Shown: in pieces, positions 20,705-26,401 of the stretch
Layout of the letters: each line of letters starts with the position of its first letter
How positions within the stretch are numbered: the first letter of the stretch is position 1
Source: a virus
Strand: one strand, 5' to 3'
IMG/VR virus record: IMGVR_UViG_3300035664_000072
Location: 1 to 26,401 of that record
Length of the DNA stretch: 26,401 nt
Made by a program: the position numbers and the translations under genes
The notes under the pieces: generated by a model
What the model was told of the DNA's origin: nothing
The model's database searches: none
The model's input: only the letters and a program-made list of their open reading frames with translations

Positions 20705-20940
20705 CGGGCGAAGGTAAGTTCCTTTATCTCGCCGTTAGGAGCAAGCGTAAAGAAGCGGACATCTGATCGGGCGAAGGACGGGTAGGTCTTGCGCTTCCAG
20801 GCGTTGAGGTCGGTCAGGAAGTCGGCGGCCTTGCGGGCCGTGAACTCGACGTACGGGAAGCCGTCCAGGAAGAGCAGCAGGGCGTACTGCTTCGGGACGG
20901 TGGCCGCAATCTTCTCGATGCCCTTGGGGGTGTCAGCCAT
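20701..20940 (-). CDS. Hypothetical protein (79 aa)
   Basis: The start chosen is the ATG at 20940 (MADTPKGIEKIAATVPKQYA), which overlaps the upstream stop by 8 nt. Sequence further upstream in this frame lies over the previous gene and does not look coding. The 79-residue product has a short strand-rich core (YALLLFLDGFPYVEFTARKA), a helix (DFLTDLNAWKRKTYPSFARS) and a final hairpin (VRFFTLAPNGEIKELTFAR). The compact alpha/beta pattern implies a folded domain. No family recognised; it is coupled to the coiled-coil gene that follows. Confidence 0.6.
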   Translation of the reverse strand: MADTPKGIEKIAATVPKQYALLLFLDGFPYVEFTARKAADFLTDLNAWKRKTYPSFARSDVRFFTLAPNGEIKELTFAR

Positions 20941-21367
20941 TGGACTGCTTGCCCTCCTTGGCGGCGTGCCATTCCTCAATTCGAGGACTATCTGGGTCTT
21001 CAAAGCCAAGCCAAATAGCCAAGTCATCTCCAGCCTTGGTCAGCCGCTCGATGTGCGCTTTCAGCGTCTTGATGTCGTCACGGCGTAGCGTATCGGCGTA
21101 GAGGTATGCGGTGAGGGCGTCGGGTTCGGCTTTCAGCCGCTCGACCTCGGCTTCGGCTTTGTTCCTTTCGGACAGCGTCTCGGCTTGTAGCAGGGTCAGC
21201 CGCTCGACCTCGGCCTTGAGGCGTGCGTAGTCCTCATAGGAAACCCATCGGCCTTCTTTGCTTGAAACCATCATTCCGAAAAGTTCGGCGTCCGGCTTAT
21301 TGCAACGATTGCAAAGAAATTGATTTAATTCGTGTCGATCAGGTTCGGTCATAATTGGTTCGCTCAT
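20933..21367 (-). CDS. Coiled-coil protein with CxxC and AKEG tail (144 aa)
   Basis: The start is the ATG at 21367, overlapping the preceding stop as TGATG. An N-terminal CNRC pair (ELNQFLCNRCNKPDAELFGM) is followed by leucine-zipper-like heptads (ARLKAEVERLTLLQAETLSE, KAEAEVERLKAE). A C-terminal block HIERLTKAGDDLAIWLGFED leads to EEWHAAKEGKQSNG. The gene at 23678-23980 has the same C-terminal block (RLTKAGDAM...WNAAKEGNAK), so the two are paralogues or share a mobile C-terminal module. Similar coiled-coil small proteins are frequent in phage early regions, with unknown function. There is no catalytic motif. Confidence 0.65.
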   Translation of the reverse strand: MSEPIMTEPDRHELNQFLCNRCNKPDAELFGMMVSSKEGRWVSYEDYARLKAEVERLTLLQAETLSERNKAEAEVERLKAEPDALTAYLYADTLRRDDIKTLKAHIERLTKAGDDLAIWLGFEDPDSPRIEEWHAAKEGKQSNG

Positions 21368-21690
21368 CAGAGTTGCCCGGTCTTGGCTCGGTTCCACTTG
21401 GCGATGGTGGCGATGCAGCAGGCTTTCGAGATGGCGTCGAACTGGCAGAGCTCAGACTGCATGATGTCATCGAGGACGCGGGCGAGTTCGTTGCCGGCGT
21501 AACGCATGGCCTGGATGTGCTCGGTCTGATTGGCCGCACGGGCTTCGGCGGCCTTGCAGGCTTGGGTCCAGAACTCTGTGTGGTCGGCGGCCTTGAGCTG
21601 ATTGATTTCAGCGTCCTTGGCGGCGAGGAGGTTCTGGTTGTGCAGGTGCCGCATGGCGGCGTTGATGGGGTCGTAGGGGTCTTGGCTCAT
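21367..21690 (-). CDS. Small helical protein, related to the AKEG-tail family (107 aa)
   Basis: The protein is helical. It starts MSQDPYDPINAAMRHLHNQN and has a middle heptad region with AKDAEINQLKAADHTEFWTQ. It ends AMRYAGNELARVLDDIMQSE and then AKWNRAKTGQL. The C-terminal pattern AGxxLA...W-x2-AK-x-G matches the C-terminal blocks of the genes at 20933-21367 and 23678-23980, suggesting a third diverged member. It is ATGA-coupled to the ERF gene upstream and TGATG-coupled to its paralogue downstream. Function unknown; next to an annealase it might be an accessory factor. Confidence 0.62.
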   Translation of the reverse strand: MSQDPYDPINAAMRHLHNQNLLAAKDAEINQLKAADHTEFWTQACKAAEARAANQTEHIQAMRYAGNELARVLDDIMQSELCQFDAISKACCIATIAKWNRAKTGQL

Positions 21691-22151
21691 TTGGTCAGGG
21701 GGCGAGGGGTGGATGCTCCGCCTAGGACGGACTGCGAAGTGGGCGCAGAACGGAAGCCAGATGCCACGGCGCCGTCATCGTCGAGGTCGACTGAGATACC
21801 ACAGGCGGTCTGGATGGACTGCCGGCGGATGTAGGTGATGGCTCCGCCGATCTGCTGGGCGGTCAGTCCCTCGGCCTTGACGAGCAGGGTGCCGAACTCG
21901 AAGCGTTCCCCGGAGCTGTGCAGGAAGGCGGTCGAGACGCCGACCTTTCCCTCCTGGCTGACGAGCGTCTGGATCAGAGCGAGGTCGTGGTCGAGGAGCA
22001 CGGGCTTGATGGCGTCGAGCAGCGCGTCGAGGGAGACGTACTTGGCCTTGAAGGCGGGGTTGATTTTGTTGGCCTTCACGTTGTCCAGGGCGGCGAGCGC
22101 TTGGACGAGGGAGGCGGTGGCGGTGGTGGGGGGCGTGGGTTTGGTGCTCAT
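21687..22151 (-). CDS. ERF-type single-strand annealing recombinase (154 aa)
   Basis: The ERF family fingerprint is clear: NPAFKAKYVSLDALLDAIKP at about 31-50, then LLDHDLALIQTL, and GGAITYIRRQSIQTACGISV followed by DLDDDGA around 115-140. In ERF proteins this IxYxRRYxLxxxxGIxxDDDDG segment closes the annealing core. The protein binds ssDNA made by the PD-(D/E)XK exonuclease encoded downstream and anneals homologous strands for recombination, genome circularisation or concatemer formation. At 154 residues it is close to the minimal ERF core and lacks the long C-terminal domain of P22 Erf. It starts 6 nt after the upstream stop. Confidence 0.88.
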   Translation of the reverse strand: MSTKPTPPTTATASLVQALAALDNVKANKINPAFKAKYVSLDALLDAIKPVLLDHDLALIQTLVSQEGKVGVSTAFLHSSGERFEFGTLLVKAEGLTAQQIGGAITYIRRQSIQTACGISVDLDDDGAVASGFRSAPTSQSVLGGASTPRPLTK

Positions 22152-22157
22152 GGGAGA

Positions 22158-22382
22158 TTATTTGGTTTGTTGGTCGGCCTTCGTGACTTCACCGGCCTTC
22201 AGCGTGGCCTCGATGTCGTCGAGGGACATCCGCGTGTAGCCGGGGACGAAGAGGTTGTAATAGGTCACGCCGTTGCGGACGGTCGGGGTCAGCAGGCGGG
22301 CGACCTTCTGATCGGGCAAGACGATGTAGGACGAGTCCGCGATGATGCGGTATTCGGCGGGGAGTTTCGGGTCTTTCTTCAT
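22158..22382 (-). CDS. Hypothetical protein (74 aa)
   Basis: The 74-residue basic protein starts MKKDPKLPAEYRIIADSSYI. It has strand-like segments (YIVLPDQKVARLLTPTVRNG and YYNLFVPGYTRMSLDD) and a C-terminal helix. The pattern LxPTxxNGxxYYxLxxxG suggests a small beta domain with conserved Tyr and Gly. It is the first gene after the 21-bp perfect dyad at 22415-22435 and begins 33 nt beyond it, so it is the nearest gene to be controlled by that site. The ERF gene follows. It may be a regulator or accessory protein; no family is recognised. Confidence 0.6.
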   Translation of the reverse strand: MKKDPKLPAEYRIIADSSYIVLPDQKVARLLTPTVRNGVTYYNLFVPGYTRMSLDDIEATLKAGEVTKADQQTK

Positions 22383-22414
22383 GTGATAGGAGAGGTTACA
22401 AAGTAAAGGTTCTT

Positions 22415-22435
22415 ACTGAGTTATGTTAACTCAGT
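22415..22435. promoter_or_regulatory. Perfect 21-bp dyad, operator-like
   Basis: The sequence is two 9-bp arms, ACTGAGTTA and TAACTCAGT, around a 3-bp centre ACA (minus strand). It lies over the last bases of the resolvase gene and before the 74-aa and ERF genes. The arms are AT-rich enough to serve as a protein site, and the half-site spacing suits a dimeric repressor. A T-tract does not follow directly, so it is weak as a terminator. TTAACA inside it could be a -35 element with a poor -10 TTACTT 17 nt on. Confidence 0.6.
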
Positions 22436-22895
22436 TAATCACGCCACGCTTGGCGCTATCGTAAATCAGCAATGCGTCTGAGTTCCACAGGGTAACCTGA
22501 ACGGTGTTTCCATACAGTTCCATGGCCCGGGCCTTCAGCTTGTTTTTCCATTGGGTCGTGGTCAGTTCGCCCTTCGTGCCGCAGGTGTGCGTCTTCTGCC
22601 AGATGGCCGGACGGATGCGGTGGATTTTCCAGCCCATGGCGACCGCGGCGCCGTAGAGGACGCCCGTGTTCCACATCAGTTTACCGATGGCGGACCCGGG
22701 GATGTTCTTGCCGGCGAACAGCGGAGGTTCCTCAAGGTAGAGCGAGACGTCCTTGGCCTTGCAGCTCAAGTCAGCGAGGAGTTGGCAGACCTCGATGTCT
22801 GACGACGGCATCTTAGCGCACTCGACAGGGTCGCCTTCAAGGGACCAGACGATGCCCCCGTTCACGCCAGGGTCGATCGCGACAAGAAGATGCAT
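22431..22895 (-). CDS. RuvC-like Holliday junction resolvase (154 aa)
   Basis: The RNase H-fold signature opens the protein: MHLLVAIDPGVNGGIVWSLE with the first catalytic Asp. A second acidic site is in VSLYLEEPPLFAG. The segment GKLMWNTGVLYGAAVAMGWK is the conserved helix of RuvC-like resolvases, followed by RIRPAIWQKT. A final acidic residue is in LWNSDALLIYDSAKR. It cuts four-way junctions or branched DNA before packaging. The ATG at 22895 gives the family-like N-terminus; a GTG at 22913, which overlaps the upstream stop as GTGA, would add six residues. The stop lies inside the left arm of the 21-bp dyad. Confidence 0.84.
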   Translation of the reverse strand: MHLLVAIDPGVNGGIVWSLEGDPVECAKMPSSDIEVCQLLADLSCKAKDVSLYLEEPPLFAGKNIPGSAIGKLMWNTGVLYGAAVAMGWKIHRIRPAIWQKTHTCGTKGELTTTQWKNKLKARAMELYGNTVQVTLWNSDALLIYDSAKRGVIN

Positions 22896-22909
22896 GGGCA
22901 AGACCCTTG

Positions 22910-23359
22910 TCACTTGCCACGCTGGGACAAGCGGAAAAGGTTAGCCACGCGGAAAGCGTAGCCGTTCGCCCGGAAGCCTTGGGAGCGGGCGGCGGTCCAG
23001 CCGACGTTCCAGACAAGGGCGAGTTGTTCGGGGGTCGGGTCGGTCATGCCGATGCGGTGGAAGTTCGCCCTGATCCAGCGGAGGTGCGAAGCGGCCACCA
23101 TGTCCTGCGCCGTAGCGTCGCGCCACTTAGACCAGGGGAAGGCGTAATGGCCCTCGGCCTTGAGGCGGGCGGAGGCGTCGTCCCAAGCGGCCTTGTTGAC
23201 CTGATACATCCCACGCTCCCCGGCCTTACCGATGGCCTTGCGGTTATGCCCGGACTCGACCTCGGCGACGGCCTCGAGGAAGGCGGCGTCGGTCTTGGCT
23301 TGGGCGTTGAGCCCGAGGAGCAGCAGGGCGACGACGGAGAAGCGTTGGTTTAGGGTCAT
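22910..23359 (-). CDS. Sec-exported lytic transglycosylase-like protein (149 aa)
   Basis: The chosen ATG at 23359 gives a clean signal peptide: MTLNQRFSVVALLLLGLNAQ followed by an A-K cleavage site at about 21/22. The mature part has AFLEAVAEVESGHNRKAIGK with catalytic-type Glu35, then GERGMYQVNKAAW, the ESGxN...GxxGxxQ layout of goose-lysozyme/SLT-type transglycosylases. LALVWNVGWTAARSQGFRAN corresponds to the C-terminal helix with the conserved NxG. It would cleave peptidoglycan in the periplasm. It is coupled by ATGA to a 44-residue membrane protein and could be the endolysin or a wall-remodelling enzyme. Confidence 0.82.
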   Translation of the reverse strand: MTLNQRFSVVALLLLGLNAQAKTDAAFLEAVAEVESGHNRKAIGKAGERGMYQVNKAAWDDASARLKAEGHYAFPWSKWRDATAQDMVAASHLRWIRANFHRIGMTDPTPEQLALVWNVGWTAARSQGFRANGYAFRVANLFRLSQRGK

Positions 23360-23490
23360 TTCCAGAAGATGATGTATGCGTAGGCCATCAGGTAGACCAC
23401 GGCGTAAGGGATGACGACCCAACGGATTATGAAGGAATGACGGCTCCGAGTGCGCTCAATAATGAGGCAGACTTTTTGCATTTCATTCAT
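23356..23490 (-). CDS. Small single-TM protein upstream of the transglycosylase (44 aa)
   Basis: The frame was found by reading the gap between two genes. ATG at 23490-23488 overlaps the upstream stop as ATGA, and TGA at 23358-23356 overlaps the transglycosylase start as ATGA. The product begins MNEMQKVCLIIERTRSRHSF, has a basic stretch (ERTRSRHS), then a strongly hydrophobic segment (IIRWVVIPYAVVYLMAYAYI) ending IFWK. It is one transmembrane helix with few charges at the end, and its position just before a peptidoglycan hydrolase suits a holin-like, pinholin-like or accessory lysis protein. The function is inferred from topology and context. Confidence 0.62.
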   Translation of the reverse strand: MNEMQKVCLIIERTRSRHSFIIRWVVIPYAVVYLMAYAYIIFWK

Positions 23491-23681
23491 GGCTGGCCCT
23501 TGCCCTCCTTGGCGGGTTTATTCTCACAGACAGCATACATACTGCACCCAGATATTTGCTTACGGCATCCGCAGGGCTTACCCTTATCGCACAGGCGTGG
23601 GCGTGTTGCAAACCAGCGACTAATCTCGTTTGTAAGCCAGAAGAAGAGGCAGAATGTAACGATGAAAATGAGGATGTTCAT
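23487..23681 (-). CDS. Membrane-anchored Cys-rich small protein (64 aa)
   Basis: The N-terminus (MNILIFIVTFCLFFWLTNEI) is one hydrophobic helix, followed by a basic linker (SRWFATRPRL). A compact Cys-rich tail has Cys31, 37, 39, 46 and 52 in CDKGKPCGCRKQISGCSMYA and just after. It ends AKEGKGQP, matching the C-terminal tails of other small genes in the window. The Cys cluster could bind metal or form disulfides. GC is low, about 45 %. It is ATGA-coupled to the 44-residue membrane protein, so both may belong to one envelope-acting unit with the transglycosylase. It could be spanin-like, a metal protein or a superinfection factor. Confidence 0.66.
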   Translation of the reverse strand: MNILIFIVTFCLFFWLTNEISRWFATRPRLCDKGKPCGCRKQISGCSMYAVCENKPAKEGKGQP

Positions 23682-23980
23682 TTGGCGTTGCCCTCCTTGG
23701 CGGCGTTCCAGCGTTGGACGGATTGGTGAACGATGGTCGGGCCGTCGTAGTCTTTAGCCATCTCCTCGTTGAATTGGATAGAGGAAGCCATCGCATCCCC
23801 GGCCTTGGTCAGACGCTCGACCTGTGCCTGTAATTCCTTGTTAGGCATAAGGGTGCAATTACAGAAGACCATCAGATGCTCAACCTCAGTCTTGAGGCGG
23901 GCGTTCTCGGCCTTGAGGGCGGCGACCTCCTTGTTCAGCTCGCCGACGCGGCGCATCATCGTCAGTTCTAGGTCGCTCAT
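23678..23980 (-). CDS. Coiled-coil protein with AKEG tail, paralogue (100 aa)
   Basis: From the ATG at 23980 (ATGA overlap with the upstream stop) the product is 100 residues. Leucine-zipper-like heptads (VGELNKEVAALKAENARLKT) are followed by CNC (40-42) and a second heptad block QAQVERLTKAGDAMASSIQF. The C-terminus is VQRWNAAKEGNAK. The last 50 residues align with those of the protein at 20933-21367 (RLTKAGD, W-x-AAKEG). Much longer upstream sequence in this frame is Arg/Pro/Ser noise and is not coding. It is probably an oligomeric small phage protein; no function is recognised. Confidence 0.65.
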   Translation of the reverse strand: MSDLELTMMRRVGELNKEVAALKAENARLKTEVEHLMVFCNCTLMPNKELQAQVERLTKAGDAMASSIQFNEEMAKDYDGPTIVHQSVQRWNAAKEGNAK

Positions 23981-24261
23981 ACGCGTCTCGGGACTTGTGA
24001 TCCGGCGACCTCGAAGCCGTCGACCTCGTAGGAGTAGGTTATCCCGACCCAGCCACCGGCGGCGGCGTAAGCCTGGAGCGATACCTTCACGGCGCCGTCT
24101 TCGTGCAGGGCTTCGTGATAGTGGTGCAGGAGTTTCTTCATGCGGCCGGAGGCGATGGCGGTCTTGTTTGAGCAGATGTCCCCGGTCATGATGCGCTCGT
24201 TGATTTCGTAGACCTCGGAGAGTAGGGCGACCATGCCGTCGAGGTGGCGGAAGGAACTCAT
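23977..24261 (-). CDS. Hypothetical protein (94 aa)
   Basis: The start MSSFRHLDGMVALLSEVYEI is a helix. A second helical region includes SGRMKKLLHHYHEALHEDGA, and strands follow (AVKVSLQAYAAAGGWVGITY, then YEVDGFEVAGS). The layout is alpha-alpha-beta-beta in a folded alpha/beta domain; the His-rich stretch LHHYHEALHEDG could bind metal. No family recognised. Both ends are ATGA-coupled to neighbours, and the upstream gene ends in the same LNAK sequence as two other genes in the window. Confidence 0.6.
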   Translation of the reverse strand: MSSFRHLDGMVALLSEVYEINERIMTGDICSNKTAIASGRMKKLLHHYHEALHEDGAVKVSLQAYAAAGGWVGITYSYEVDGFEVAGSQVPRRV

Positions 24262-24608
24262 TTGGCGTTAAGTTCGGTGACGCGGGCAATCGCCTTGGCC
24301 GGGTCGGTTTCGTATGCGAAGCACTTGTTCGGCCCATCGTACAAATAAGCCTTACCACGGAAGTGAGCATAGGTCTTGCCCCTGTCCAGCTCGGGATCGG
24401 TGTCGTGGAAGTAGTACCGAATGCCGTGGTCGGACTCATTGTATTCAACCTTCCAGCGCGGGCGTGTCGTATACTTGCCGCGAAGCAAGTCGTCCTGGCG
24501 GTCACACAGGGCGCGCAGCGCGTTGCAGTTGCGGTGCAGCTGACGGGCCATGCTCCAGGGGAACAGCCACCAGAGGCGGGGGAGGGAGTCGGGTTTGATG
24601 ATGGTCAT
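24258..24608 (-). CDS. Hypothetical protein (116 aa)
   Basis: The start is assigned to the ATG at 24608 (MTIIKPDSLPRLWWLFPWSM); an ATG at 24641 would add 11 residues that overlap the upstream gene. A Trp/Pro-rich start leads to a helix (ARQLHRNCNALRALCDRQDD). A strand-rich half follows, with Tyr/His/Asp residues (PRWKVEYNESDHGIRYYFHD, then KTYAHFRGKAYLYDG). A short terminal helix AKAIARVTELNAK resembles a common ending of small phage proteins. No membrane segment beyond the short WWLFPW patch. Function unknown. Confidence 0.58.
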   Translation of the reverse strand: MTIIKPDSLPRLWWLFPWSMARQLHRNCNALRALCDRQDDLLRGKYTTRPRWKVEYNESDHGIRYYFHDTDPELDRGKTYAHFRGKAYLYDGPNKCFAYETDPAKAIARVTELNAK

Positions 24609-24633
24609 GGGATTGTATGGGCGGTGGGATGGG

Positions 24634-24849
24634 TCAGGCATGGGTGGATTTGTAGGCGTCGAGGATGGCTTTGTTGCGGAGGTAGCGGGCCTTGGCGGCG
24701 GCTAGGATGCGTTCCTTGTTCTTGAGGTAGTAGTTCTGTCGGTAGCCGGGGTTGCGGGCAACCCATGCCTCGGTGATGGCGATGACTCGCTCCTTGTTGG
24801 CCGCGTAGTAAAGGCGGCGCTTGTAGTTGGCGATTTCCTTGTCGGTCAT
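24634..24849 (-). CDS. Small basic helical repeat protein (71 aa)
   Basis: The 71-residue protein contains two copies of an NKER helix: KRRLYYAANKERVIAITEAW and then QNYYLKNKERILAAAKARYL, spaced about 28 residues apart. Internal repeats of this YY-x-NKER-I form are known from several phage and bacterial small proteins of unclear function; similar helices accompany some homing-endonuclease and DNA-binding proteins. The whole chain is basic and helical, which suits nucleic-acid binding. It begins 7 nt after the upstream stop (TAATACGACC-ATG). No catalytic residues are seen. Confidence 0.62.
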   Translation of the reverse strand: MTDKEIANYKRRLYYAANKERVIAITEAWVARNPGYRQNYYLKNKERILAAAKARYLRNKAILDAYKSTHA

Positions 24850-24856
24850 GGTCGTA

Positions 24857-25123
24857 TTAGTTGCGGGTCTTGTACGGGCCGCGGCGGTTAAGGTTGACCC
24901 AAGTCGTGCCGGTCAGGTCGAGCCAGGTCCGCAGGGTGCAGACGGTCGTGTCCAGGGCGGCGGCGGCGTCGGCCTGCGTCTTGCCGGCGGCGTTGAGCGC
25001 GGCGATCTGCGGGAGGATGGCCTGCAGGCGTCGGGCGGCGAACTCGGCCATCGGGCGTTTGAGGGGGATGACGCGACCGGCGAAGGTCAGCGTCTCGGTG
25101 TAGGGGTGGTGTGCGTTGGGCAT
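24857..25123 (-). CDS. Small HTH protein, probable regulator (88 aa)
   Basis: The start is the ATG at 25123, in the TAATCTTCCCACC-ATG context; sequence upstream in this frame is Ser/Pro noise. Residues 32-75 carry a helix-turn-helix pattern: PQIAALNAAGKTQADAAAAL, a turn, then TVCTLRTWLDLTGTTWVNLN. The form (AAGKTQxDAAxxLxxxxxTLRxWL) is that of small phage or transposase-type HTHs. The C-terminus is basic (NRRGPYKTRN). It may be a transcriptional regulator of the early operon and a candidate ligand for the 21-bp dyad, although no direct link is visible. Confidence 0.65.
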   Translation of the reverse strand: MPNAHHPYTETLTFAGRVIPLKRPMAEFAARRLQAILPQIAALNAAGKTQADAAAALDTTVCTLRTWLDLTGTTWVNLNRRGPYKTRN

Positions 25124-25133
25124 GGTGGGAAGA

Positions 25134-25472
25134 TTAGGCGAGGTGCCAGCAGAGGATGGTGACCTTGGGGTTGGAGTGGGAACCAGCGTCCCGGTACTCG
25201 ACGACCTGATCGTAGCGGGAGCACACGTCGGCCTTGGCCTTGGCGGTGACGTACTTGTTGAAGTCGCCGGCGGTCGGTTCGCTGGCGAGGACGACGAGCT
25301 GACCGCGGACATGGTCGATGCCGTAGAGGGCGTAGGCGCCGAGGCCCTTGACGCAGCCGTCCCTGTCCTTGAGGCTGGCGGCCTTGCGGAAGTCGATGGC
25401 CTTGCGCTTGAGGAGTTCGGTCATAGCCTTGTCGGAGACGAGTTCGGCCTTGGGTTTGGTGGTATTGCTCAT
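25134..25472 (-). CDS. Hypothetical protein (112 aa)
   Basis: The product starts MSNTTKPKAELVSDKAMTEL and is mixed alpha/beta: a basic helix (LLKRKAIDFRKAASLKDRDG), then strands around YALYGIDHVRGQLVVLASEP. Then comes a helix with KYVTAKAKADVCSRYDQVVE and a last strand KVTILCWHLA. There is no membrane segment or recognised motif. It lies between the small-TM gene and the HTH gene, with 19-nt and 10-nt gaps. The AGDFNKYVTAKAKADV stretch may form a binding helix. Function unknown. Confidence 0.62.
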   Translation of the reverse strand: MSNTTKPKAELVSDKAMTELLKRKAIDFRKAASLKDRDGCVKGLGAYALYGIDHVRGQLVVLASEPTAGDFNKYVTAKAKADVCSRYDQVVEYRDAGSHSNPKVTILCWHLA

Positions 25473-25491
25473 GTGTTGTGTGGGTGGGAAA

Positions 25492-25632
25492 TTAGCGGTG
25501 GCTGCGGACGGCCTTGGCGGACTTCACCGGCTCCGGGCCGTTGATGACGCGGTAGAGTTCGGGACCGCAGAAGGTCACGATGGCGAGCCAGCCGATGGCG
25601 GCGATGGCGAACAGGGTAGCGAGGGCTTTCAT
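25492..25632 (-). CDS. Small single-TM protein (46 aa)
   Basis: A 46-codon frame runs from ATG 25632-25630 to TAA 25494-25492. The product begins MKALATLFAIAAIGWLAIVT, an N-terminal membrane helix or uncleaved signal anchor. A short periplasmic or cytoplasmic part follows (FCGPELYRVINGPEPVKSAK) and ends basic. After its stop comes TAATTTCCCACC..., the junction type seen at several other genes, then the next ATG at 25472. It is the first gene of the early block, directly after the terminator-like region. Possible roles are membrane targeting, host modification or superinfection exclusion; none can be shown from sequence. Confidence 0.66.
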   Translation of the reverse strand: MKALATLFAIAAIGWLAIVTFCGPELYRVINGPEPVKSAKAVRSHR

Positions 25633-25823
25633 GTGTTTGGTGGTGCGTCAACATCCTTGGCAGACTGTTCCGCATTCGTCAAGGGTCTTTCCGCAAGGGC
25701 CAAAAGAAGACCCCCACTTGTCTCGTCAGACAGAGGCGGGGGCCGTTATAAGTTCCAATGTGCCACCCTAGGCCGCCACGTCAAGGGGCAATAGACCCCT
25801 CTGGCTTGCCCTCAGAGGCGGGT
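25633..25823 (-). promoter_or_regulatory. 191-nt non-coding boundary between holin and early genes
   Basis: The interval contains no credible gene. Just after the holin stop, CCTCTG (25818-25813) can pair with CAGAGG (25803-25798), and a GGGG/CCCC stem follows. The terminator-like hairpin at 25702-25742 lies beyond. Two TTGACG hexamers on the minus strand, at about 25670 and 25645, could be -35 elements for the early block, but no good -10 is found (CAAGGAT is the best). It probably separates two transcripts, one ending after the holin and one starting before the 46-aa gene. Confidence 0.4.
25702..25742 (-). terminator. Terminator-like hairpin upstream of the early block
   Basis: On the minus strand CCCCC (25742 region) pairs with GGGGG, and an inner TGTCT/AGACA stem caps with a GACG tetraloop; an asymmetric internal loop lies between the two. 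It is followed by TCTTCTTTT (about 25710-25702), a fair U-rich tract. The hairpin lies between the holin gene and the first early gene. It is a plausible intrinsic terminator for the upstream transcript. Confidence 0.5.
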
Positions 25824-26153
25824 TTACCCTTTAGGGGGTGTCTTCCCCTTCATGGCCTTGATACGGGCCAGCAGGGCGTCACTTAATTCGGGGGCCGCGT
25901 AACCAGCGCACCCGGCGGCGGCGAAGGCCAGGGCCTCGGAGGAGAAGTAGCCCTTCGTGCCAAGCCCGACCAGAAGCGAGGTCAGTCCAGCGGTGGCCGT
26001 GCGGCGCAGGATGTAGCCTAGCGACTGCTTCTCGCTGGAACAGAAGTAACGGACCAGCCAAGAGACCGAACCGATCAGGATGCCCATGCCGATGTCGCGG
26101 GCCTCGACGGGAATCTCGTCGGGGGAGGGAGGTTGGGGCAGGGCGGCGCTCAC
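25824..26153 (-). CDS. Holin, LydA-like (109 aa)
   Basis: The protein has three hydrophobic segments: about 21-38 (IGMGILIGSVSWLVRYFC), 49-66 (LRRTATAGLTSLLVGLGT) and 72-89 (SEALAFAAAGCAGYAAPE). Charged turns lie between them, and the C-terminus is basic (ARIKAMKGKTPPKG). This topology and the RRxxxAxxTSLLVGL...LAFAxAGxAGYxAPE pattern are those of the LydA-type phage holin family, which forms membrane lesions at the end of infection. It starts at GTG 26153, overlapping the upstream stop as GTGA. The gene just upstream is an HEXXH metallopeptidase-like protein. No peptidoglycan hydrolase is adjacent within the window. Confidence 0.78.
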   Translation of the reverse strand: MSAALPQPPSPDEIPVEARDIGMGILIGSVSWLVRYFCSSEKQSLGYILRRTATAGLTSLLVGLGTKGYFSSEALAFAAAGCAGYAAPELSDALLARIKAMKGKTPPKG

Positions 26154-26401
26154 GAGATGCGGGGCGGCTTGGCGTTGGGGGCGAGCATGACGCGGCGGTA
26201 GTCCTGCGCCCAGAGCATCTTGGCCAGGGCTTTGCCGGCCTTGTCGACTTCGGCTTCGGCCACGCCGGGGAAAGGCAGGTGGACCTGCTCATGGCACAAG
26301 ACTTCGAGCTGACGCTTGGCGCCGAGGCGGGGGTCAATCTCGATGAGGTCTTCGCCGATCGTGGCCTGACCCCAGGCACGCTCACGGCCTAACTTGCGCC
26401 A
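26150..26401 (-). CDS. Partial HEXXH metallopeptidase-like protein, C-terminal 83 aa
   Basis: The frame is open from the right edge (WRKLGRERAWGQATIGEDLI) to the TGA at 26152-26150, so the N-terminus is missing. It contains VLCHEQVHLPFPG, an HEXXH zinc-binding motif (His37, Glu38, His41 of the visible part), followed by AEAEVDKAGKALAKMLWAQD, which may supply a third ligand (Glu49 or Glu51). Small phage proteins with a CHExxH followed by a helix and LWxxxYRR are known from several environmental phages; the substrate is unclear. The GTGA overlap with the holin suggests joint expression and a possible role in lysis or host-wall attack. Confidence 0.7.
   Translation of the reverse strand, partial: WRKLGRERAWGQATIGEDLIEIDPRLGAKRQLEVLCHEQVHLPFPGVAEAEVDKAGKALAKMLWAQDYRRVMLAPNAKPPRIS

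Follow-up and report, generated by a model that had tools for sequence, protein, structure and literature searches.

The stretch of DNA analyzed here, virus record IMGVR_UViG_3300035664_000072 (26,401 nt; hereafter the window), carries on its minus strand three open reading frames (22910-23359, 23356-23490, and 23487-23681) that are chained by ATGA overlaps and lie 2.47 kb from a holin-like gene, as the initial annotation had described. The genes and features of the locus are as follows.

22431..22895, minus strand: RuvC-like Holliday junction resolvase, direct downstream neighbor of the enzyme gene (PHROG 1770, E=1.7e-13)
22910..23359, minus strand: SLT lytic transglycosylase of 149 aa, proposed SP-endolysin (Pfam SLT, conservation, signal peptide)
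23297..23359, minus strand: putative signal peptide, residues 1-21, with an AQA|K cleavage site (by inspection)
23356..23490, minus strand: p44, 44 aa with a single TM segment, N-terminus inside as judged by charge, apparently accessory (pN/pS; restricted to the variable slot)
23487..23681, minus strand: p64, 64 aa, N-terminal TM segment and six Cys (window only)
23678..23980, minus strand: p100, variable-slot coiled-coil protein; the AAGGAGG ribosome site for p64 lies within the 3' end of its gene
23977..24261, minus strand: p94, core soluble protein (in 75/81 loci, including L001, the window's own copy)
25663..25744, minus strand: putative boundary between the holin cassette and the early operon (hairpin and conserved promoter-like element)
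25824..26153, minus strand: LydA-like holin candidate (weak Pfam PF16083 and PHROG matches)
26150..26401, minus strand: SprT-like HExxH protein without a signal peptide, cut by the window end (weak match)

The transglycosylase gene starts at the ATG at 23359, not at a longer TTG start, and ends at 22910. Its product matched the Pfam SLT family (PF01464) at E=4.4e-6, with 26.7 bits against a gathering cut-off of 21.3 bits. E35-S36-G37 and G47-x-x-G50-x-x-Q53 were invariant in 16 aligned rows and were also present in a relative on locus L098; ESG, with its catalytic Glu, and G-x-x-G-x-x-Q are what we take to be the motifs of SLT transglycosylases. By inspection, the N-terminus reads MTLNQR, with one R, followed by the h-region FSVVALLLLGLN and then AQA|K. 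Residues A19, Q20, A21, and K22 were invariant in the 16 aligned rows, and the Ala-rich AxA-type end was kept in the diverged relatives L111, L112, L126, L141, and L142. Judged by sequence only, the transglycosylase is predicted to carry a cleavable signal peptide with n, h, and c regions, and the SLT match and signal peptide together bear out the earlier view of an exported, lysis-type enzyme located outside the holin cassette. Classification as a SAR endolysin was rejected, because the h-region is by inspection strongly hydrophobic and followed by an AxA site, rather than a weakly hydrophobic uncleaved anchor. The signal peptide also disfavors a virion enzyme, as well as the use in entry that had been suggested at the outset; the sole PHROG lead toward a virion role was 'lytic tail protein' (E=0.0014 over 36 residues).

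Relatives were collected in two scans. The first, with the enzyme as query, found 134 encoding stretches, and the best 80 of these 134 loci were kept; across them the enzyme was 88-100% identical (46 distinct sequences), with mean pN of 0.035 and mean pS of 0.220. The second, limited to the best 80 of 222, returned mostly contigs already in the first set and added diverged enzymes at 72% (L141) and 81-88% (L111, L112, L126, L142, and L144) identity, all six of which adjoin RuvC and begin with a signal-peptide-like stretch. An SLT domain was detected in 19/19 related records, above the cut-off in 16 and sub-threshold in 3, as one copy per record bar one mirror-duplicated contig. In that contig (IMGVR_UViG_3300020043_003659; L020 and L022), the enzyme region appears twice in mirror orientation, which is probably an assembly artefact.

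Outside this set, the enzyme had no match among 50,697 phage records, and a search of genome contigs (321 stretches) yielded no relative. SLT was likewise absent from P8625, the nearest isolate, and from two metagenome-assembled genomes (MAGs) with portal matches (0/3). A profile built from the enzyme and its L098 relative matched E. coli MltE/EmtA chains weakly (E 0.016-0.31); a profile from the enzyme family alone gave nothing useful against PDB sequences. The AlphaFold model, made from a shallow alignment, had a pLDDT of 58, and its best PDB comparison (Z 2.8) was to an unrelated fold. The L098 relative itself (461-1204) is an SLT protein anchored by a TM segment, shares 36% identity with the enzyme across 117 aa, and closes a tail module, where endolysins are commonly encoded, on a different, 22 kb phage contig; tblastn of this protein in phages gave nothing useful. 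Membership of the enzyme in the SP-endolysin class, a step beyond 'SLT protein with a signal peptide', is proposed by analogy.

The window resembles the Verrucomicrobia phage P8625 in portal (27%) and capsid (29%), and portal genes 85% and 90% identical occur on short contigs of a Verrucomicrobiota MAG and an Opitutales MAG. The host of the group is thus probably a member of the Verrucomicrobiota, in freshwater. The genome of these phages is approximately 28-30 kb, with a lambda-type portal. In the five long relatives (27.6-32.9 kb), the main genes share one orientation, in the order terminase, head, tail, fibre, lipoprotein, HExxH protein, holin, and small TM genes, then regulator-type genes, p94, slot, transglycosylase, RuvC, ERF, exonuclease, and helicase. 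Because the window stops inside the HExxH gene, the fibre-to-lipoprotein stretch is missing from it. One long relative, G001 (IMGVR_UViG_3300042514_000940), has terminase genes at both ends, approximately 28,230 bp apart; its end overlap is only 76% identical (ungapped), which could mean that two strains are fused in this contig or that it carries small indels.

The surroundings of the enzyme gene are constant on one side and variable on the other. RuvC lies within 150 bp downstream in 77 of the 78 loci where both were measured (from the best 80 of 134). Upstream, a variable slot separates the enzyme from p94; of the 74 loci that could be measured, 25 lack any gene there and p94 directly precedes the enzyme with a gap of 0, and otherwise the slot holds mostly soluble coiled-coil proteins, a TM protein having been noted for L003, L071, and L017. 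In the window, ATGA overlaps occur at 23681, 23490, and 23359, with p100 and p94 chained likewise, and a mechanical count of ATGA-linked pairs in which both ORFs had at least 40 aa gave 18 on the minus strand and 2 on the plus strand, some surely spurious. The enzyme ATG overlapped the stop of the upstream gene in 80/80 loci (best 80 of 134), the partner being p94 in 25, a coiled-coil gene in 40, p44 in 2, and another gene in 13, several of them coiled-coil-like. Since the enzyme thus overlaps any upstream gene, ATGA coupling was rejected as a sign of a functional pair.

The upstream border of the slot is a shared stretch that encodes the AAGGAGG ribosome site and ends in ATGA; its exact 27-base form was found in 14 of the best 80 of 134 loci, always upstream of the enzyme. 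The small coiled-coil family (RLKAEVERL and a WNAAKEG tail) is represented in the window at 20933-21397 and 23678-23980, as well as in L003, L034, L070, and many other loci. The 3' ends of its genes encode the ribosome site of the next gene together with the ATGA, and these genes reshuffle among close relatives, marking a cassette-exchange border.

p44 has one hydrophobic segment (residues 25-43) and no family match in Pfam or PHROG. It was found in four IMG/VR contigs besides the window, always in the p94-enzyme slot, and in 2/80 loci of the first scan (best 80 of 134). It lies directly before the enzyme in L003, L071, and L157 and two genes away in L144/L158, and hence abuts the enzyme in four of the five known contigs, the window counted. 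Its DNA is identical to that of the window at 132/132 bases in L003 and 131/132 in L071, next to enzyme genes that differ from the window's by 3% and 11%, respectively; the distant copies are 84% (L157) and 80% (L144/L158) identical. Its pN/pS of approximately 0.11-0.21 in the three pairs compared marks p44 as a selected gene. Purifying selection and this strict placement beside the enzyme would fit a lysis modulator that restrains the enzyme, a role that p94 or p64 might share by analogy and that is compatible with the enzyme being the endolysin; with the enzyme lacking p44 in 78/80 loci (best 80 of 134) and p44 lacking a family match, we regard this as rather unlikely. The pattern would fit p44 having a modest part in controlling lysis, but equally a slot that is simply a recombination site for such genes.

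p64 has Cys residues at 11, 31, 37, 39, 46, and 52, and its Lys and Arg residues number 0 before the TM segment and 10 after it, so the Cys part is predicted by the positive-inside rule to be cytoplasmic. One scan of IMG/VR recovered no relative, and p64 occurred in 0/80 first-scan loci (best 80 of 134); its coding status is accordingly to be judged only from its start, ribosome site, and overlap. Its 3' end is the same junction DNA as that of the coiled-coil genes, and p64 therefore looks like a fusion at the border. A spanin role for p44 and p64 was considered and rejected on topology and on the lack of a lipobox (Phe occupies position -1 in the IVTFC of p64; p44 lacks any such motif). Neither protein had a family match, and PADLOC gave no meaningful match; a superinfection role is possible for either.

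The initial annotation had treated the three genes as one unit, possibly a complete alternative lysis system. Overlapping genes, with membrane proteins adjoining a hydrolase, are what such a unit would look like; however, p64 is unique, p44 is rare, the holin and spanin-like genes are elsewhere, and ATGA overlaps are common here. The enzyme is core, but p44 and p64 occupy a variable slot that is often empty, and we consider a three-gene lysis unit very improbable. p44 and p64 appear instead to be swappable accessory passengers, not parts of a lysis unit.

The holin candidate matched PF16083 at E=0.01 (16.4 bits, below the cut-off of 28.4) and PHROGs 6384 (E=4e-4) and 785 (E=9e-4), and a LydA-family signal was found in 5/6 contigs of the group. 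Its reading frame ends 2,465 bp before the enzyme start in the window; across 40 loci, the distance from holin to enzyme was 1,520-4,702 bp (median 2,498). In the five long contigs, the holin, a lipoprotein, and the HExxH protein are clustered downstream of the tail fibre. The lipoprotein of L089 (1244-1975) has 244 aa and a LAGC lipobox, with a long central part leading to TM segments at the C-terminus, and is a u-spanin-like candidate; the late-cassette lipoprotein matched an Rz-like spanin PHROG (E=9e-4), a match confined to the 40 N-terminal residues. Directly after the holin, four of the long relatives (G001, G003, G004, and G006) encode a 108-aa two-TM protein (L089:2595-2918), possibly an antiholin or second holin, which was not seen in the fifth, G002, and is absent from the window.

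In relatives, the SprT-like HExxH protein lies between the lipoprotein and the holin, and two diverged subfamilies were seen (window 26150-26401 and L004:1826-2110). It has 94-105 aa where complete, and H49, E50, and H53 are invariant in 16 rows. The L089 homologue matched SprT-like at E=0.002, below the cut-off, and M78-like and PHROG 'metallo-protease' were other weak leads; the structure model had a pLDDT of 66, and its best fold comparison (Z 3.9) was unrelated. This protein counts against an endolysin role for the transglycosylase, since it sits next to the holin, where an endolysin is usually found, and could itself be the lytic enzyme; its lack of a signal peptide is expected of a canonical holin-released enzyme. 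The HExxH protein might then be the true endolysin, or both enzymes might act, with the transglycosylase auxiliary like the Kayvirus Tgl beside LysK. We judge this unlikely: none of its weak family leads is a wall hydrolase, it is small, and its model has no fold match.

Between the late cassette and the enzyme operon lies a conserved hairpin (25744-25709, with a T-rich tail, z=-2.7), followed by the promoter-like TTGACGAATGCGGAACAGT from 25682. The element reads GGAAAG....TTGACGAATGYGGAACAGTCCGCCAAGGAT, also written TTGACGAAT...GAACAGT. It occurs once per genome in 6/6 long contigs (window included), always at the boundary and in the sense direction. A consensus sigma-70 scan of 21000-26401 found no promoter; as that scan missed the conserved element, the element is called promoter-like only. 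The boundary likely marks where late transcription stops and an early operon begins, for which the element would act as promoter, and the assignment of the enzyme to an early region holds up on this reading. A canonical lysis cassette was rejected, because holin and enzyme are not adjacent and are separated by the hairpin and promoter-like element in 30 of the 40 loci holding both genes; in the other 10 (L047, L049, L050, L052, L053, L059, L076, L077, L079, and L080) the element was not found.

Which enzyme lyses the cell was approached through a gene-by-gene scan of the near-complete relative G004 alone, with a Pfam list complete at E<=0.01 and the best 25 of 65 PHROG families. Its 44 ORFs matched 25 Pfam families, and the only wall-hydrolase families among these were SLT and 'Transglycosylase-like', both on the same protein; since PHROG was covered for the best 25 of 65 families, other lysis families are possible by PHROG. 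As the sole wall hydrolase recognized by Pfam in G004, the enzyme appears to be the endolysin that the holin cassette lacks, not part of a second or alternative lysis system. Its position past the conserved boundary element, among regulator and recombination genes and away from the holin, would also suit an early action on the wall, such as superinfection exclusion or remodelling, in place of lysis. Such a role would leave the phage without a recognized wall hydrolase (G004 scan), and Kayvirus Tgl is early-transcribed and still a lysis enzyme (PMC7150955); we find a purely early role distinctly unlikely.

We therefore favor, as the probable explanation, that the transglycosylase is a signal-peptide endolysin that is made early, exported, and triggered by the holin, with p44 and p64 as exchangeable accessories. 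The early/recombination operon would give rise to the enzyme, and Sec would export it, with cleavage after AQA. It would then wait in the periplasm for the late LydA-like holin to collapse the membrane potential, whereupon the outer membrane would be handled by the u-spanin-like lipoprotein encoded in the late cassette. We infer export, timing, holin triggering, and the spanin role from the gene content and layout. p44 and p64 would be dispensable, having been inserted at the shared ribosome-site/ATGA junction upstream of the enzyme. Counting against the endolysin reading, an active hydrolase exported early risks premature lysis. It is possible, if doubtful, that the sole murein hydrolase is exported early, that the cell is thereby armed long before virions are present, with the timing of lysis depending wholly on the late holin, and that the swappable overlapping genes (p44, possibly p94) act as strain-specific restraints on the enzyme.

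These results supply a likely endolysin and a lysis layout for a widespread uncultured phage group linked to Verrucomicrobiota/Opitutales. The words lysis, holin, endolysin, lysozyme, and transglycosylase do not occur in the paper on P8625, the nearest isolated relative, and searches of the open-licence PMC literature listed no work on how Verrucomicrobiota phages encode lysis. Should the enzyme indeed be made early, these phages would provide a test of how an exported hydrolase stays harmless until the holin fires.

In T7 (gene 3.5 lysozyme) and T4 (gene e), too, the endolysin gene is found at a distance from the holin, among early or DNA-metabolism genes. The T7 enzyme is an amidase, and its gene adjoins the Holliday junction endonuclease gene 3. 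In contrast to the window's enzyme, neither is known to have a signal peptide, and the parallel is one of gene position. Kayvirus Tgl is a secreted transglycosylase with an AxA signal peptide and an early-type promoter, which lyses cells once nisin removes the membrane potential (PMC7150955). The window's enzyme is likewise an AxA signal-peptide transglycosylase in what seems to be an early-type operon; however, Tgl is extra to LysK and located near it, whereas here there is no second recognized wall hydrolase and the gene lies in a recombination operon. In Firehammervirus, F379_024 is an upstream gene that overlaps a Sec-dependent SLT endolysin gene and delays lysis (PMC7692668). p44 is similarly a small gene overlapping the start of a predicted Sec-exported SLT enzyme, a likeness of gene arrangement, but F379_024 is conserved in its genus and p44 is rare.

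The nearest parallel in domain and layout is Fletchervirus F352, for which the same report describes an SP-SLT endolysin (F352_101), a LydA holin, and scattered lysis genes; co-expression of enzyme and holin lysed E. coli in a Sec-dependent manner, and the holin was needed (PMC7692668). In the Fletchervirus genomes CP81 and NCTC12673, we found SLT once each, with a LydA family match (below the cut-off) far away in both. Pairwise BLAST detected no similarity between the window's enzyme and the CP81 SLT protein. Fletchervirus infects Campylobacter and has a genome of 132-135 kb, in contrast to the far smaller genome of the window's phage with its lambda-type portal and its probable Verrucomicrobiota host, and the window's enzyme adjoins a RuvC-like gene. 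In the combination of a signal peptide with SLT (PF01464), a LydA-type holin candidate, and dispersed lysis genes, the window resembles Fletchervirus F352, and its enzyme is probably a further case of this known lysis type, the SP-endolysin, and not a second lysis unit.
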